DNA of 48,925 nucleotides. It comes from an archaeon. Its GTDB lineage: Archaea > Thermoproteota > Nitrososphaeria > Nitrososphaerales > Gagatemarchaeaceae. A program made the position numbers and the translations under genes. The DNA lies in contig JAKAOG010000005.1 of the NCBI GenBank assembly GCA_021823325.1, forward strand, positions 1 through 48,925, read 5' to 3'. Shown here piece after piece: positions 9,074 to 15,144 of the stretch (the first letter of the stretch is position 1; every line of letters starts with the position of its first letter). The notes below the pieces were generated by a model. It had not been told where the DNA came from. It searched no databases and saw only the letters and a list, made by a program, of their open reading frames with translations.

Positions 9074-10714
9074 TTGCCCAAGTATCTTTTCGTGACGGGT
9101 GGGGTCATGTCGGGGCTCGGCAAAGGCATAATCACCTCGTCGGTCGCCAAGCTTTTGCAGCTTTCTGGCGTACAGGTGACCTGTCTCAAGATTGACCCGT
9201 ATCTCAACTTCGACGCCGGCACGATGAACCCATACACCCACGGCGAGGTGTTCGTGACCGACGACGGCGGGGAGACAGACATGGACATCGGGAACTACGA
9301 GCGCTTCCTCAACCGGGACATGCACAAGTCCAACAACATAACGACCGGCCAGATCTACAAGAAGGTGATAGACGACGAAAGGGAAGGGAGATTCCTCGGC
9401 AAGTCGGTCCAGATCATACCTCACGTCACCGACGAGATCAAGAAGAGGATCCGGGCCGTCGCCGCTGCAGAGAAGGTGGACGTCCTCGTCGTAGAGTGCG
9501 GGGGGACCGTGGGCGACATAGAGAGCCTCCCGTTCCTTGAAGCGTTCAGACAGATGCGGATGGAGGAAGGCCCGTCGAAGACCCTCTTCCTCCATGTCAG
9601 CCTGGCGCCTGAGCTGTCTGTGGTAGGCGAGATGAAGACCAAGCCAACCCAGCACAGCGTCCAGGAGATGAGGCGGATAGGGGTCCAGCCGGACGTAATC
9701 GTCATACGCGGCAGCAGGGCCCTTCCCATGGAGGCCAAGGAGAAGATCTCTCTCTTCACGAGCGTCCCGCTGGAGAGCGTAATCTCCGACCCCGACGTCG
9801 AGACCATCTACCAGGTGCCGCGGCTCCTCGAAAGGGAGGGCCTCCTGAAGCCCATCCACAGGCAGCTCGGGCTACGTGCAAGGGCGGCTATGAGGGAGTG
9901 GAACGCGGTCGCCGACAGGTTCGTCGACCAGCCGCTTACTGTGAGGATCGCGATGGTGGGGAAGTACGCCAACCTCGCCGACAGCTATGTGAGCGTGAAC
10001 CAGGCGCTCTCCCACGCAGGCGCTGTAAACGGCGCGAAAACGAAGATTTCGTGGATCGAGTCAGAGGAGATAGAGAAGGACGGGTCGAGGCTTGACCTCA
10101 TCGACGCCTACGACGGGGTGGTCCTGCCGCAAGGCTTCGGGGGAAGGGGAGTCGAAGGCAAGATAGCCGCAGCGAACAGGGCGCGCGTTTCCAAGGTCCC
10201 GTTCCTGGGGCTGTGCTACGGCTTCCAGCTGGCTAGCATCTCATTCGCGAGGAACGTGCTGGGGATGAAGGGGGCGAACTCGACAGAAGTGGACCCGGAC
10301 ACGCCGTATCCTGTCATCGACCTCCTCCCGGAGCAGAGGAGGGTGAGGGACCTTGGAGGGACGATGCGGCTCGGGGGACACGACGTGCACCTGAAGAGGC
10401 CCAGTAAGGCGTTCGACATCTACGGGACAGACAAGCTCAGGGAGAGGCACAGGCACAGGTACGAGCTGAACCAGAAGTACCTGAAGCGCTTCGAGGAGAA
10501 CGGGATGCACTACACTGCGTTCAGCGACAAAGGCAGGAGGGCGGAGATAATGGAGCTTGACGGCCACCCCTTCTACATGGGGACCCAGTTCCATCCGGAG
10601 TACGTAAGCAGGCCCGAGGATCCGGAGCCGATCTATGTCGCCTTCGTGAAGGCGTGCGCCGCAAGGGCGAAGCAGGTTGGCCGCGCGGAGAAGGCAGAAG
10701 TCCTAGCGCGCTGA
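9074..10714 (+). CDS. pyrG: CTP synthase
   Basis: This 546-residue full-length enzyme makes CTP from UTP, ATP and glutamine. The N-terminal synthetase domain starts with KYLFVTGGVMSGLGKGI (P-loop) and contains KIDPYLNFDAGTMNP and GGTVGDIES. The C-terminal class I glutamine amidotransferase has the nucleophile Cys in FLGLCYGFQ, where LGMQ would be more usual. The His-Glu pair is in GTQFHPEYVSRPEDP. The start is TTG. The 3' end overlaps the convergent ThiR-like gene by 12 bp. Confidence 0.97.
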   Translation: MPKYLFVTGGVMSGLGKGIITSSVAKLLQLSGVQVTCLKIDPYLNFDAGTMNPYTHGEVFVTDDGGETDMDIGNYERFLNRDMHKSNNITTGQIYKKVIDDEREGRFLGKSVQIIPHVTDEIKKRIRAVAAAEKVDVLVVECGGTVGDIESLPFLEAFRQMRMEEGPSKTLFLHVSLAPELSVVGEMKTKPTQHSVQEMRRIGVQPDVIVIRGSRALPMEAKEKISLFTSVPLESVISDPDVETIYQVPRLLEREGLLKPIHRQLGLRARAAMREWNAVADRFVDQPLTVRIAMVGKYANLADSYVSVNQALSHAGAVNGAKTKISWIESEEIEKDGSRLDLIDAYDGVVLPQGFGGRGVEGKIAAANRARVSKVPFLGLCYGFQLASISFARNVLGMKGANSTEVDPDTPYPVIDLLPEQRRVRDLGGTMRLGGHDVHLKRPSKAFDIYGTDKLRERHRHRYELNQKYLKRFEENGMHYTAFSDKGRRAEIMELDGHPFYMGTQFHPEYVSRPEDPEPIYVAFVKACAARAKQVGRAEKAEVLAR

Positions 10715-11617
10715 GTACGACTTCGCAAGCCTGATGGCCAGCTCGGCCGCGTCTCTCGCGCTCTTCGCAAAAAGGTAGACGTTGGGCTCTATGCCGCCCC
10801 CTCCTTCCTCGACGACGGCGTCGAACCTCCCCCTATGCGACCTCAGTGTTTTTTCCATCGCCGCGACCGTGGGGTCGTCGATCCCCGGACCGCGCACCCC
10901 TCTGACCGCAAGCGGCCTGATGCCTTCCCTTCGCAGCAGGTCACCCATCTTTCCGTCGTAACGCACGTTGATGCACGCCCGGTGCCCCGGCCTGCGGGAC
11001 ATCGCAAGAAGCAGGACCCTGGCCATGTGGACGGACGCACCCGGCTCAGGAGGGAGCGTGGCTCTCGCCCTCCCCCTCGCTCTTACGACCCGCCCCGGAA
11101 CCGCTACGACGTCGGCAGGGTTGGTCGCGCCATTCGCCGCGCTGGCGATGTTCACCGACACCTCAGGCATGATCGCAACGAACTCGGGGGAACCCTCCAG
11201 CGCCCTGACCGCGTCCGAGACGTCAGCGACGTTCTCCGCCATCCCCCCGGGGCGCATTCCGTACTCGGAGATGCATACGTCGCACCCTGCGAGCTCAGGA
11301 TACACGCCTCTGTGCGCGTCGCAGACGAGCCCGCGCCCAAGCAGCCCGTTCCAGATGGAGGTCATGGTCTTCACCCCCTCGACCGGGCCGTCAGTGACGG
11401 CAGAAGACAGCTGAGCCGAAAGCCTGTCGGCGTCGCCGATGGTCACGTTCAGCGCGGCGAGGGAGGCGTAGGCTCTCTTCACGTCAGAGGAGAGGTAGAG
11501 GCTCACCGAGGCCTGGGTTATCCCCAGGAGAGAGGAGATGCGGTTCTGCGACATCCCCCTGTCCCTCAGCCGGCGGGCGACGAGCTGTCTCATGGACGGG
11601 AGGAAGGACTGCGTCAT
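10703..11617 (-). CDS. HTH-ThiN (ThiR-like) transcriptional regulator of thiamine metabolism
   Basis: This 304-residue protein joins an N-terminal HTH (RRLRDRGMSQNRISSLLGIT and onward, about residues 13-45) to a C-terminal ThiN-type thiamine-phosphate-binding domain (about 130-304, with ACINVRYDGKMGDLLRREG and EGGGGIEPNVYL). Archaeal HTH-ThiN proteins (ThiR) sense thiamine phosphates and repress thiamine genes. It diverges from an ECF S-component and an AIR-synthase-like gene, which fits. The ATG at 11617 is 26 bp from the GTTATAAC box, so it is preferred to the GTG at 11638. Whether the ThiN part is still catalytic cannot be judged. Confidence 0.85.
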   Translation of the reverse strand: MTQSFLPSMRQLVARRLRDRGMSQNRISSLLGITQASVSLYLSSDVKRAYASLAALNVTIGDADRLSAQLSSAVTDGPVEGVKTMTSIWNGLLGRGLVCDAHRGVYPELAGCDVCISEYGMRPGGMAENVADVSDAVRALEGSPEFVAIMPEVSVNIASAANGATNPADVVAVPGRVVRARGRARATLPPEPGASVHMARVLLLAMSRRPGHRACINVRYDGKMGDLLRREGIRPLAVRGVRGPGIDDPTVAAMEKTLRSHRGRFDAVVEEGGGGIEPNVYLFAKSARDAAELAIRLAKSYSAR

Positions 11618-11638
11618 CAGCTCGTCGGGAGGGTGCAC

Positions 11639-11646
11639 GTTATAAC
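11639..11646 (-). promoter_or_regulatory. Palindromic TATA box of the ThiR-like gene
   Basis: GTTATAAC is a perfect palindrome centred about 26 bp from the ATG at 11617. Confidence 0.6.
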
Positions 11647-11661
11647 CGACTTATTCACTTG

Positions 11662-11669
11662 CTTATAAG
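11662..11669 (+). promoter_or_regulatory. Palindromic TATA box of the ECF S-component gene
   Basis: CTTATAAG is a perfect palindrome centred about 26 bp before the GTG at 11691. It is 23 bp from the opposing box, so one bound regulator could cover both promoters. Confidence 0.6.
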
Positions 11670-11690
11670 GCCGCGCCGCCGGGGCGCTCT

Positions 11691-12269
11691 GTGCAAACGG
11701 AAGCCGGACCCACCCCGGACAAAGGACCGAAGAAGTCTGTCGCGCTCGCCGTGGTGGCTGTGTTCTCGGCGCTGATCGCCGTCGGGACCATCTTCTCCAT
11801 ACCTTTGCCGCCGCCGGTGTACGAGATCACCTGGTCTCCTGCCATATACCTCGCGCTCGCGGCCCTGGTGGACCCTTGGACCGCGTTCGACGCCACGGCC
11901 ATCGGAGGTTTCCTCGGGGAGGCGTTCAACGTGGCGTTCAAGGGCGGCGGGTCTCCGATCTATCCGTTCGGGATGGTATGGGCGAGGGGACCTGAAGTCT
12001 TCATCGTGGCATGGGCGAGGACGAAGGGGCCGAAGGCAATGGCGGCCGCGATGGTCGGTGCGACAATCTTCGAGACCCTGGCGTTCTTCTTCTCCGACTG
12101 GGGGTTCTACGCATATGGCCTCTTCTCCTACAGCGTCCCCGCAGGGTCGACCCCTCTGGGGCTGGCGTCTTTCGACTTCGCCACACTGCTTGACATCGCG
12201 TACATCCCCGTCGCGCTCCTCCTGATCCGGCAGGCAAGGCCTGCGTTCAGAAGGCTCGGTTACGGGTAG
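11691..12269 (+). CDS. ECF transporter S-component-like protein, candidate thiamine or precursor uptake
   Basis: This 192-residue protein has about five to six membrane helices. The first is SVALAVVAVFSALIAVGTIF, and a tryptophan-rich PVYEITWSPAIYLALAALVDPW segment follows, as in ECF S-components. Its position, diverging from a ThiR-like regulator and 9 bp ahead of an AIR-synthase-like gene, makes thiamine or a pyrimidine/thiazole precursor the best guess. This is inference from context. The leaderless GTG start agrees with the CTTATAAG box. No ATPase partners are in the window. Confidence 0.68.
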   Translation: MQTEAGPTPDKGPKKSVALAVVAVFSALIAVGTIFSIPLPPPVYEITWSPAIYLALAALVDPWTAFDATAIGGFLGEAFNVAFKGGGSPIYPFGMVWARGPEVFIVAWARTKGPKAMAAAMVGATIFETLAFFFSDWGFYAYGLFSYSVPAGSTPLGLASFDFATLLDIAYIPVALLLIRQARPAFRRLGYG

Positions 12270-12278
12270 GAGGGCGAG

Positions 12279-13325
12279 ATGGCGACTCCGGGGAAGGAAA
12301 GCGAGCGCTTCATGGAGAGGGCGGTCTACGCCCACCTCGGCGCAGTCAGAGACGCCGGCGTCGTCAGGCCAGGCGTGGGGCTCGACAACGGCGTAGTCAA
12401 GCTCGCGAGCGGGAACGTGCTGATAGTCACCGTAGACCCCGTCTCGGCCGTCCCAGAACTCGGGATGGAGCTCTCGGCGTGGCTGAGCGCGCACCTGATC
12501 GCCTCCGACTTCACCACCTCGGGGCGCGACCCTGAGCACGCGACGTTCAGCTACAACTTCCCGCAGTCGATGACCGAAAGGGAGAGAGAAGCGTTCGTCG
12601 CCTCGATGGGCAAAGCGTGCGGCGACCTGGGCGTGGCCATCGTCGCGGGGCACACGGGGAGCTACCCGGGAGGCGGCTTCACGGTCATCGGCGCCGGCTC
12701 GATGATGGCAGAAGCGCCGGCAGACGGATTCGTCACCCCCGCGATGGCAGGAGAGGGAGATTCGATCGTCGTGACCAAACAGGCGGCGATAGAGGCGGCA
12801 GGCTCGCTGGCGATGTCGTTTCCGAATCATGTGGAGGAAGCGTCAGGCCTTCCTGCAAAGCGCCGCGGCAGAGACCTGCTCGCTGGCTGCACCACTGTAC
12901 CTGACGCGAGGTCGGCTAGGAAGGTCGGGCTGGGACCAGGCGGCGTCACTTCGATGCACGATGCGACGGAGGGCGGAGTCCTTGGAGCCCTCGACGAGAT
13001 GGCGGCGGCTTCTGCGAAGGCGTTCCAGGTCGAGGTCGACAGGATCCCCGTCACGACCGACGTGCGGGCAATCTGCCATGCGTTCGGGCTGGACCCGCTC
13101 GAGACGATGGGAGAGGGGGCGCTGCTCATCACATGCGGACCCGACCGGGTGGAAGAGCTTCTCCGCACCCTCCGCAGAGACGGCGTATCAGCATCTGAGA
13201 TCGGGAAAGTGAAGCGCGGGAAGGGACTGAGGCTGAGGTCGCGGAGCCGCGTGCGCGGGTACGTGCGCCGTCCAGACCCTTACTGGCTTGCTTACGCGAA
13301 AGCGACGGCCAGCGGACTGGAGTAA
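12279..13325 (+). CDS. AIR synthase-related (ThiL/HypE-like) ATP-binding protein
   Basis: This 348-residue protein belongs to the PurM/ThiL/HypE/SelD superfamily. An N-terminal ATP-binding half includes NVLIVTVDPVSAVP and IVAGHTGSYPGGGFTVIGAG. The C-terminal half includes GPGGVTSMHDATEGGVLGALDEMA, the family's Asp-containing glycine motif, and ETMGEGALLITC. True ThiL phosphorylates thiamine phosphate. The location downstream of a ThiR-controlled transporter makes a kinase step in thiamine salvage plausible, but HypE-like or other activity cannot be excluded. It starts with ATG 9 bp after the previous stop, behind a GGAGG sequence, so it is translated as an internal operon gene. Confidence 0.78.
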   Translation: MATPGKESERFMERAVYAHLGAVRDAGVVRPGVGLDNGVVKLASGNVLIVTVDPVSAVPELGMELSAWLSAHLIASDFTTSGRDPEHATFSYNFPQSMTEREREAFVASMGKACGDLGVAIVAGHTGSYPGGGFTVIGAGSMMAEAPADGFVTPAMAGEGDSIVVTKQAAIEAAGSLAMSFPNHVEEASGLPAKRRGRDLLAGCTTVPDARSARKVGLGPGGVTSMHDATEGGVLGALDEMAAASAKAFQVEVDRIPVTTDVRAICHAFGLDPLETMGEGALLITCGPDRVEELLRTLRRDGVSASEIGKVKRGKGLRLRSRSRVRGYVRRPDPYWLAYAKATASGLE

Positions 13326-13356: not shown

Positions 13357-14115
13357 ATGCCGGTCGACATGCAATCATCCCAGCTCCCCAGCCCCGAATC
13401 GTTTTCGAAGAGGATACACAACACCCTCGTCGCCCCCGAAGCCACCCGGTCTGAAGTGGTGGCGTTCTGCAGAGAGGCAAGGGCTTACCGCTTCGGGGCG
13501 GTCGTGGTCCAGGGCTGCTGGGTGAAGGTCGCCAGGGAGACGGTGGGGGGGTCCGTCGGCGTCTCGGCGGGGGTCGGTTTCCCGATGGGAGGGGTCACCA
13601 CCGAGTCGAAGGCATTCGAGATAGCCGAGACCTCGAAGGAAGGCGCGGACATGTTCGATGTGATGCCTAACATCGGCTACCTGAAGTCCGGGATGTTCGA
13701 CGAGTTCAAGGGGGACATCGCTGCCATGGTCAGGGCCGCGAAGGGGAGGCCGCTCAGGGTGATGCTGGAGTTCTCCGTCCTCGACCATGACCAGAAGGTG
13801 ACGGCCGCCAGGCTCAGCGAAGAGGCGGGGGTCGCTGGGGTGAAGAACTCGAGCGGATGGGGGAGAGGGGGACCTGCCACCGTCGAAGACATCAGGTTGC
13901 TCAGGGAGACCGTTAGCAGCAAGGTGCACGTGAAGGCGTCAGGCGGCATCCGGAACCTCGACTCGGCCATGGCCATGGTTCAGGCGGGAGCCGATTATCT
14001 CGGGACCAGGGCAGGGGTGGCGATCATCGACGAACTGAAGGCTAAGCTCGGAGACTCCGGGAAGGCTGCTGCGGGGAGCGCAAGAAGCGGAGCGCCCGCC
14101 GGCGACCTGGAGTAG
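13357..14115 (+). CDS. deoC: Deoxyribose-phosphate aldolase
   Basis: This protein of about 252 residues cleaves deoxyribose 5-phosphate to glyceraldehyde 3-phosphate and acetaldehyde. The Schiff-base Lys is in GVKNSSGWGRGG, the second Lys is in HVKASGGIR, and the acidic residue is in DVMPNIGYLKSG. The start is ATG 13357 or ATG 13369; both are within range of GGCAAAAGC around 13330. The gene ends exactly where the convergent nucleoside hydrolase ends (14115/14116). Together they suggest nucleoside salvage. Confidence 0.92.
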   Translation: MPVDMQSSQLPSPESFSKRIHNTLVAPEATRSEVVAFCREARAYRFGAVVVQGCWVKVARETVGGSVGVSAGVGFPMGGVTTESKAFEIAETSKEGADMFDVMPNIGYLKSGMFDEFKGDIAAMVRAAKGRPLRVMLEFSVLDHDQKVTAARLSEEAGVAGVKNSSGWGRGGPATVEDIRLLRETVSSKVHVKASGGIRNLDSAMAMVQAGADYLGTRAGVAIIDELKAKLGDSGKAAAGSARSGAPAGDLE

Positions 14116-15060
14116 TCAGACCAGTCCGCCATTCAGCATCGTCAAGAGCATCTTGCGGAACAGTACCCCGGACGCCGAGTAGACGACCTTTGTGTTAGGT
14201 TTCTTCTTCAGGATGCCCAGCTCGTCGACGATGGTGGCGCCACGGGACGGCCCATAGGTGTTGTCCACCTCGACGAACCTTTGCCGCGTCTCGGTGGCTA
14301 CCCTGGGGTTGAGGACGACCGCCATGGTGAGGCTGTCGGTGCACACGATGCCGTCCTGTTTGTATTCTTGCTTCATGTACCTGCGCACCTGCCTGTTCAC
14401 GGCCAGGAAGAACTTGGACTCGGTGGTGCCGATCTTCTCGATGTCGGCTATCTCTCCGGGTCCTAGGATCCCATGCCTCATGCATATCTCCCATCCCAGC
14501 ATCGTCGGATGGAGCCCAGACTCCATGACGATCTTCGCGGCGTCAGGGTCGACCCAGATGTTGAACTCTGCAGCCGGAGTGGTGTTCCCGAGGTACTGGT
14601 TGGCGCCCCCCATGAAGTAGAAGCGCCTGATCTTCTTCACTATGCCGGGGTCCTTCTTGATCGCGAGGGCGAGGTTCGTCATCGGGGCTATCTCGACGAA
14701 GTCGATCTCTCCCGGGTTGCTGTTGATCGTCTCCACGATGGCGTCGACTGCGTGCTTCGACTCCGCTCTCTGGCGGGCGAGAGGAAAGTTAGAGTTCCCC
14801 ATGCCGTCGTTACCGTGGACCTCCTCAACCGTCCGAAACGTCCTCAGCAGTGGGTTCCTGGCCCCCGGATAGACGGGGACCTTGCCTGACTTGCCTGCCA
14901 CCTGTATGGTGTAGAGCGCGTTCTTCACGTGCTGGTCAAAGTCGACGTTTCCGCAGTTGATGGTGATACCCTCCAGTACGGCGTCCTTCGCCTTCAGCGC
15001 CATCATGATCGCGATGGTGTCGTCCCCTGCTGTGTCGGTGTCTAGGAGGATGCGTCTCAT
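14116..15060 (-). CDS. Inosine/uridine-preferring nucleoside hydrolase
   Basis: This protein of about 314 residues hydrolyses the N-glycosidic bond of nucleosides. The calcium-binding N-terminus is ILLDTDTAGDDTIAIMMAL. Other family features are HGNDGMGNSNFP, the IAPMTNLALAIKKDP helix, and FYFMGGANQYLGNTTPAAEFNIWVDPDAA. The ATG at 15060 gives this classic N-terminus, although the frame stays open far upstream. A box at 15082-15090 sits about 26 bp away. It is convergent with deoC, which processes the deoxyribose side of the same salvage route. Confidence 0.93.
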   Translation of the reverse strand: MRRILLDTDTAGDDTIAIMMALKAKDAVLEGITINCGNVDFDQHVKNALYTIQVAGKSGKVPVYPGARNPLLRTFRTVEEVHGNDGMGNSNFPLARQRAESKHAVDAIVETINSNPGEIDFVEIAPMTNLALAIKKDPGIVKKIRRFYFMGGANQYLGNTTPAAEFNIWVDPDAAKIVMESGLHPTMLGWEICMRHGILGPGEIADIEKIGTTESKFFLAVNRQVRRYMKQEYKQDGIVCTDSLTMAVVLNPRVATETRQRFVEVDNTYGPSRGATIVDELGILKKKPNTKVVYSASGVLFRKMLLTMLNGGLV

Positions 15061-15081
15061 GGCGGCTCCCCGGGCCTCCTG

Positions 15082-15090
15082 TGATAAGAA
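15082..15090 (-). promoter_or_regulatory. TATA-like box of the nucleoside hydrolase gene
   Basis: TTCTTATCA on the minus strand is centred about 26 bp from the ATG at 15060. Confidence 0.55.
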
Positions 15091-15108
15091 GCCTCTTCTG
15101 CAAGGACT

Positions 15109-15118
15109 TGTATAATCG
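15109..15118 (+). promoter_or_regulatory. TATA-like box of the RIO2 kinase gene
   Basis: TGTATAATCG region, centred about 31 bp before the GTG at 15145. Confidence 0.55.
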
Positions 15119-15144
15119 AGCTCCGACGCGGCGTCCGAAGAGGA

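Follow-up and report, generated by a model that had tools for sequence, protein, structure and literature searches.

Introduction

Archaeal thiamine regulators of the ThiR type, reportedly described by Rodionov and by Hwang in 2017, are said to join a helix-turn-helix (HTH) region to a ThiN domain. Among S-components of the energy-coupling factor (ECF) type the nearest described counterpart of the importer discussed here is ThiT, and among enzymes of the AIR-synthase fold the nearest are HypE, SelD and the thiamine monophosphate (TMP) kinase ThiL. Here we analyze a divergent locus that brings together a gene of each of these three kinds. It lies in a stretch of 48,925 nucleotides (the window; contig C5) of a 921,181-base archaeal genome (G000; completeness 85.65%) and comprises thiR (10703-11638, minus strand, 311 residues), a gene for an ECF-type S-component predicted to import thiamine or a moiety of it (11691-12269, plus strand, 192 residues) and a gene for an AIR-synthase-fold enzyme predicted to act in ATP-dependent thiamine salvage (12279-13325, plus strand, 348 residues). 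An earlier note on this DNA had named the same three kinds of gene, and the open reading frames (ORFs), a ThiN match of 133.4 bits, the fold of the S-component and the AIRS domains of the enzyme bear this out.

The regulator shares with archaeal ThiR proteins the ThiN domain, the palindromic form of the operator and the targeting of thiamine genes; it departs from the known systems in that nearly all sites detected here belong to one divergon with a shared TATA-like box. The S-component has the fold of ThiT, occupies the same operon slot and is under ThiR or thiamine pyrophosphate (TPP) riboswitch control, but it belongs to another family and is unmatched at 0.001 by the ThiT models PF09515 and TIGR02357. 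The enzyme resembles ThiL (TIGR01379; PDB 3c9t) in fold, in three Asp residues and in its thiamine context. It differs in scoring below the ThiL cut-off, in forming its own clade, in having His in place of D122, in its extra N-terminal GK and C-terminal Trp and in coexisting with a true ThiL in the same genome. The S-component and the enzyme each appear to represent a new family of a known kind.

Distribution and neighbourhoods of the enzyme family

Scanning named genomes with a profile of the enzyme confirmed at least 567 loci, of which the best 80 are the named relatives considered here. According to the record titles, the archaeal ones come from Thaumarchaeota/Nitrososphaerales, Bathyarchaeota, Desulfurococcales, Thermoplasmata, Haladaptatus, Halomicrococcus, Methanoregula and Metallosphaera; the others are 39 Bacteroidota loci (a label taken from record titles, which includes the two Balneolaceae loci L165 and L169), actinobacteria and others. 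A relative is present in Candidatus Gagatemarchaeum stordalenia, phylum Nitrososphaerota. The annotation of a haloarchaeal relative says no more than 'AIR synthase family protein', and we expect most members to be labelled likewise. A literature search returned no title or abstract describing the family, prior notice in the ThiR literature being possible.

The survey of neighbourhoods that the earlier note had suggested placed a thiamine marker within 200 nt of the enzyme gene in 68 of the 80 best relatives (37/39 Bacteroidota and 31/41 others), counting ThiD, ThiE or ThiE-like, ThiN, ThiT, TenA, ThiW and S-component with marker models built from members of these same neighbourhoods. The Bacteroidota marker is a ThiE-like protein of uncertain function, and one of the other loci, L149, is counted on a 51-bit match. 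Six of the 31 other loci have the S-component as their sole adjacent marker; without it the count would be 25/41. More than 3 kb from the enzyme, no marker over 40 bits was found in 346,865 bases.

A TPP riboswitch over the Rfam gathering score precedes the operon in all 39 Bacteroidota loci (11, 11, 12 and 5 in successive batches) and in 12 of 40 other loci (8/15, 3/9, 1/7 and 0/9), a denominator from which L180 was left out, its match lying at a contig edge. In L179 several genes separate the riboswitch from the enzyme, which is 3.3 kb downstream. In L133, L134, L136, L144 and L150 it ends 43 to 64 nt upstream of the enzyme match. The window has no TPP riboswitch; ThiR is used instead.

For six of the 80 relatives (L126, L127, L128, L135, L138 and L189) the marker and riboswitch searches found no thiamine link. 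These could be explained by an enzyme that is unrelated to thiamine and is a passenger of the ThiR promoter. The adjacent markers in 68/80 loci, their complete absence beyond 3 kb and the riboswitches placed directly before the enzyme gene in the five loci named above make this explanation very improbable. That the family is linked to thiamine appears near certain from these comparisons, and a role in salvage agrees with what had been predicted.

Classification of the enzyme

The enzyme has Pfam AIRS and AIRS_C domains. Its best NCBIfam model is thiL, at 81 bits against a cut-off of 184.15; hypE gives 66.5 against 251.6, and the SelD models TIGR00476 and NF010705 give 39.9 against 125 and 42.6 against 291. 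It is unmatched by the purM model at 0.001, which finds weak matches in four of 18 relatives. Over the group of 18 aligned relatives the best NCBIfam E-value is to HypE and not ThiL, all scores being below cut-off. One of the 18 is also matched by SelD_rel_HyperS (E 1.7e-4), a model that may represent the SelD-like family of Crenarchaeota.

The AlphaFold2 model (pLDDT 94.4) was found by Foldseek to be about equally close to ThiL (3c9t, with TMP and AMPPCP bound; E 6.9e-21) and to HypE (3wjp; E 7.4e-21). VIA ranked HypE first (Z 35.0; 3vys, rmsd 2.4 over 319), then selenophosphate synthetase (29.5) and ThiL (29.0; rmsd 3.0 over 294). In a 98-row tree, which takes in 26 of the 80 named loci and leaves out L039, L043 and L053, the enzyme falls in a 48-row set with support 100/99, and the 32 ThiL rows lie across another branch (95/79). 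The enzyme set is on the HypE/SelD side, though neither the deep branches nor the root are secure, and SelD and PurM are each represented by one long row. Four rows labelled AIRS3 stand among the thiamine group. The earlier note had held that a phylogeny joining the enzyme to HypE or PurM, with neighbourhoods unrelated to thiamine, would refute its reading. The first came about in part, the enzyme being nearer to HypE/SelD than to ThiL; the second did not.

Residues G5, K6, D36, D53, D77, H125, T166, H227, D228, E231 and W336 are invariant in 44/44 relatives. Three of them (D53, D77 and D228) coincide with Asp positions that do not vary among the 32 ThiL rows; a further Asp of ThiL (E. coli D122), constant in the same 32 rows, is replaced by His (H125) in all 44. 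This comparison, which had been proposed as a check, bears out the view that the enzyme is not a standard ThiL, as do its score and separate clade. K6, H125 and T166-K167 correspond to K20, H140 and T177-K178 of SelD, from which the enzyme differs in its score far below cut-off and its thiamine neighbours. With HypE (TIGR02124) it shares a motif as well as the fold, HDATEGG resembling RDATRGG. The C-terminal Cys of HypE has a functional role; E. coli HypE ends in PRIC, whereas the enzyme ends in SGLE. HypE was rejected on the score and the C-terminus; the neighbours of the enzyme, surveyed for thiamine markers and not specifically for hydrogenase or selenium genes, are thiamine genes. The idea that the enzyme might be the only ThiL of the genome was likewise rejected, since a canonical gene of 215 bits is found at G000:C1:54503-55441 and the two fall in separate clades. 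We class the enzyme as neither ThiL nor HypE. To judge from the alignment, it probably combines the common superfamily framework with an acceptor side of its own. The SelD-like proteins of Crenarchaeota (PMC4210487) were likewise a new AIRS-fold family recognised via comparative genomics.

That ThiL is the best NCBIfam model of the window enzyme would suit a second TMP kinase or a one-step thiamine pyrophosphokinase. SelD relatives release AMP, as would be expected of a pyrophosphotransferase. We regard this explanation as improbable: 81 bits is far from the 184.15 required, the enzyme lies outside the ThiL clade, the best E-value over the 18 relatives is to HypE, and the canonical ThiL would be needless if the enzyme made TPP in one step.

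The S-component

The second ORF product gave no Pfam or NCBIfam match at 0.001, and a PDB sequence search with its profile returned nothing at E 10. Its AlphaFold2 model (pLDDT 85.6) has as top Foldseek matches ThiT (4tkr; E 2.9e-4) and the RibU-type 3p5n (E 6.8e-4), and the first nine VIA rows (Z 16.9 to 14.4) are all S-components, ThiT among them.

Its place in the operon can be taken by ThiT. Among 31 genomes of the archaeal family (completeness 55 to 100%), 26 ThiR promoters lead to the S-component with the enzyme (19), to ThiT with the enzyme (four: L063, L074, L075 and L083), to the S-component without the enzyme (two) or to a contig end (one). The ThiT equivalog cut-off was exceeded by L063 and, outside the family, by L142. 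The same two genes precede the S-component and enzyme of L130 and the ThiT and enzyme of L142, each set behind a TPP riboswitch and both in Bathyarchaeota records. A TPP riboswitch also stands in front of the L153 S-component.

The S-component had been called an orphan. This holds for its location only, as a CbiQ-type T component and two adjacent ECF-type ATPases are encoded at G000:C1, all below the NCBIfam equivalog cut-offs; a CbiQ family protein over the Pfam cut-off is present in 30/31 family genomes, including this one. Taken together, the fold, the exchange with ThiT, the riboswitches of relatives and the ECF module make import of thiamine or something very close to it most likely on comparative grounds, in line with the thiamine or precursor originally predicted.

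The regulator and the divergent promoter

The ThiN domain of the thiR product scores 133.4 bits against a Pfam cut-off of 25. Its N-terminus appears HTH-like by eye, with no Pfam HTH match at 0.001. One ThiN protein is encoded in 28/31 family genomes, two in G252 and none in G175 and G251.

Two palindromes, GTTATAAC (11639-11646) and CTTATAAG (11662-11669), have centres 23 bp apart, as had been reported. They were first read as two equivalent TATA boxes. We dropped this reading in favour of an operator half-site and one shared box because among species the left palindrome varies outside its ATAA and the right TTATAA is constant, a constancy to be read with the box itself being part of the search pattern. 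Within GTTATAAC, ATAA forms the left arm of an operator, ATAACCGACTTAT (11642-11654, assigned to no strand), whose consensus over 26 aligned sites is ATAANYSRNTTAT and which is the sole match in the window. The TTATAA (11663-11668, likewise without strand) would function as the TATA box. A chance origin of the motif was ruled out: ATAANNNNNTTAT occurs once in the window with 0.01 expected from shuffles, and the composite pattern with at most one mismatch gave 37 matches in the 31 family genomes against six for the reversed control.

Of these 37 matches, 26 are at the ThiR start, one is before ThiT (G253), one before ThiW (G252) and nine are elsewhere; the alignment consists of the 26 sites at ThiR, so that 11 matches are outside it. 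An operator is thus found at the ThiR promoter in 26/31 family genomes. Among the 29 genomes with a ThiN protein, G258 and G259 gave no match at ThiR, and in G253 thiR begins at a contig end. G175 (96% complete) has neither a ThiN protein nor a composite site. Beyond the family, exact ATAANNNNNTTAT precedes the S-component of L045, where one more match occurs at another place, and the permease of L132; in L046 and L047 it is found at thiR. Four of the 26 ThiR sites (L065, L067, L069 and L084) have TTGT for TTAT in the right arm, and so does the L071 site before ThiT. In G252 (L259:4754-8551) a ThiR operator is followed by the ThiW gene and then by genes for a small P-loop protein, an MFS-like transporter and ThiD-ThiN.

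The divergent region of the relatives has a constant order: the thiR start codon, about 3 nt, ATAANYSRNTTAT, 8 nt, TTATAA and the start of the second gene. Operator positions 6-8, which were free in the search, are Y, S and R in 26/26 aligned sites; positions 6/8 are exact complements in 15 and positions 5/9 in 10. Measured from the centre of TTATAA, the thiR start codon is at 27.5 nt in 19/26 sites (span 24.5 to 28.5), and a start-like codon of the opposite direction is at 25.5 to 28.5 nt in 20/26, the codons beyond the box having been located by pattern without a reading-frame check. In the window the two distances are 27.5 nt to thiR and 25.5 nt to the S-component gene. Such a distance is usual for an archaeal TATA box, so one box can serve both genes. 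Transcripts of thiR and of the S-component operon are probably leaderless. The proposal that a single ThiR could cover both promoters stands, with the operator lying beside a shared box; the two separate boxes on which it was based fit the aligned sites less well.

Thiamine pathway genes in the family genomes

No ThiC was found in the 31 family genomes, and no thiamine pyrophosphokinase (TPK) over cut-off, the only TPK match being one of 18 bits. In 14 control genomes the same searches were positive for ThiC in 13, TPK in eight, ThiD in 14, TMP-TENI in 11 and ThiN in five. A ThiD-ThiN synthase is present in G252 alone. Other ThiD matches (18 to 52 bits) covered the later part of the profile alone and were set aside as PfkB-type sugar kinases. 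TMP-TENI proteins over cut-off occur in G163 and G253 alone, both with QxW where ThiE has QxRxK. As for ThiM, the sole PF02110 match in the genome of the window (29.2 bits) was read by eye as NAD(P)HX-dehydratase-like and rejected. Canonical ThiL is present in 13/13 family genomes of a class sample (E <= 3.2e-61).

Judged by gene content, the archaeal family seems unable to make thiamine. A TMP kinase kept without a TMP synthase needs another source of TMP, and the enzyme is an obvious candidate since it adjoins the importer; among the searched families it is the only one. It is present in 30/31 family genomes, though fragmented in G214, G254 and G256 (100 residues at a contig end in G256), the exception being G251, which is 55% complete. 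In the class sample of 250 genomes, its profile gave no match above 52 bits in families f2, f3 and f4.

A hydroxyethylthiazole kinase, that is, a functional analogue of ThiM acting on the same hydroxyl of free thiazole, could also explain many neighbourhoods. The enzyme is beside ThiD, ThiDN or ThiE in many archaeal and actinobacterial loci, a gene arrangement comparable to that of thiMDE operons; TenA accompanies it in L052 and is 2.3 kb away in L137; and ThiW, a thiamine-precursor S-component, is behind the same operator in G252. However, a TMP synthase that could use its product is recognisable in just one of the 31 family genomes, and ThiT is paired with the enzyme in L063, L074, L075, L083, L142 and L046. 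We consider a thiazole kinase unlikely. Thiamine and hydroxyethylthiazole share the hydroxyl group, so a single mode of catalysis might suit both, and the settings linked to ThiT could then be reconciled with those linked to ThiD and ThiE.

The Bacteroidota cluster and sister groups

In L145:5232-7947 and 38 further Bacteroidota loci among L154-L202, genes for a methyltransferase, the enzyme, a ThiE-like protein and a Trm112-like protein form a TPP-riboswitch operon, the Trm112-like protein being present in 38/39. The aligned ThiE-like proteins have QxW for QxRxK, together with G(V/I)H(F/L)D, which makes them improbable as normal TMP synthases. Two family members (L044:5266-8161 and L237:749-3460) have the order S-component, methyltransferase, enzyme and ThiE-like protein, the S-component of L237 being cut by the contig end; this fuller set suggests that the window locus is a reduced form. 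In PMC12236431, ThiL plus a putative transporter is counted as salvage in Flavobacteriales and Cytophagales, and a legend names thiK and thiT.

Such clusters under TPP riboswitches, like the position of the enzyme nearer HypE/SelD by tree and residues, would be expected if it were not a hydroxyl kinase but a PurM/HypE-type ATP-dependent dehydratase or cyclase. It would then repair or assemble part of thiamine in company with the methyltransferase, the ThiE-like and the Trm112-like protein wherever these occur. Yet 23 ThiR promoters have the enzyme, and in 22 of them none of these partners is encoded between it and the importer, the methyltransferase of L062 being the exception; this is too little for a pathway. 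This explanation, too, is improbable, and slightly more so than an enzyme that makes TPP or phosphorylates TMP.

A sister group of AIR-synthase-like proteins was seen in L254-L258, L061 and L058. Another S-component-like membrane protein is encoded before it in L257, L258 and L058, the one of L257 having a weak TIGR04002 match, and the group is possibly another salvage kinase. A third group, 'AIRS3', partly adjoins another S-component-like protein.

Flanking genes

The three-gene locus is preceded by a CTP synthase gene and followed by DeoC, nucleoside hydrolase and Rio2 genes, the DeoC aldolase and nucleoside hydrolase genes occupying window positions 13360-15123. In L044 a PfkB-type kinase lies between DeoC and nucleoside hydrolase, and partial PF08543 matches place one there in some other relatives. 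These genes form an apparent nucleoside-salvage set.

Proposed mechanism and significance

We propose that the locus is a thiamine-salvage divergon. ThiR would bind ATAANYSRNTTAT beside the single shared TATA box; its ThiN domain, by analogy with the ThiN family, would sense thiamine phosphate, upon which ThiR would repress both thiR and the operon of S-component and enzyme. Thiamine would be imported by the S-component, powered by the ECF module whose genes lie at another place in the genome. The enzyme would use ATP to phosphorylate the hydroxyethyl group of thiamine, giving TMP, and the separate canonical ThiL would convert this to TPP. There is good support for a setting of thiamine import and salvage; the kinase step stands at about even odds, and the substrate of the S-component and the exact reaction are those that we infer. 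The scheme as a whole seems to us evenly balanced between right and wrong.

Several observations weigh against it. Elsewhere the enzyme sits with ThiD, ThiDN, ThiE or TenA, which would fit a thiazole kinase too. Its active-site residues are nearer to SelD/HypE than to ThiL (H125 for D122; K6 for SelD K20). G261 and G262 have the divergon without the enzyme, which is found elsewhere beside an M1-type aminopeptidase (identified by eye), and G258 and G259 have a ThiR without a matching site there. ThiK-type kinases of the APH fold were outside the search for TMP sources, and the genomes are incomplete (85.65% for that of the window, 55 to 100% for the family). Finally, a plain thiamine kinase leaves the methyltransferase and Trm112-like partners in Bacteroidota unexplained, and this misfit gives room for a different ATP chemistry. 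A bolder and rather unlikely possibility is that the enzyme founds a widespread unrecognised AIR-synthase family, controlled by TPP riboswitches or ThiR in archaea and bacteria, for a thiamine step made by no known enzyme. In the simplest case it would be the missing archaeal thiamine kinase; in Bacteroidota it would belong to a methyltransferase/ThiE-like/Trm112 pathway in which PurM- or HypE-like ATP chemistry restores or builds up part of thiamine.

Conversion of imported thiamine to TPP through ThiL requires TMP to be made first. For this step the enzyme offers a concrete and testable answer, given its presence in 30/31 family genomes and the riboswitches at 39/39 Bacteroidota loci. The locus also adds an S-component family interchangeable with ThiT, and what seems to be a single TATA-like box for both directions, a very compact form of control. 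If the proposed reaction is true, the enzyme may be the missing step that lets these microbes use imported vitamin B1.

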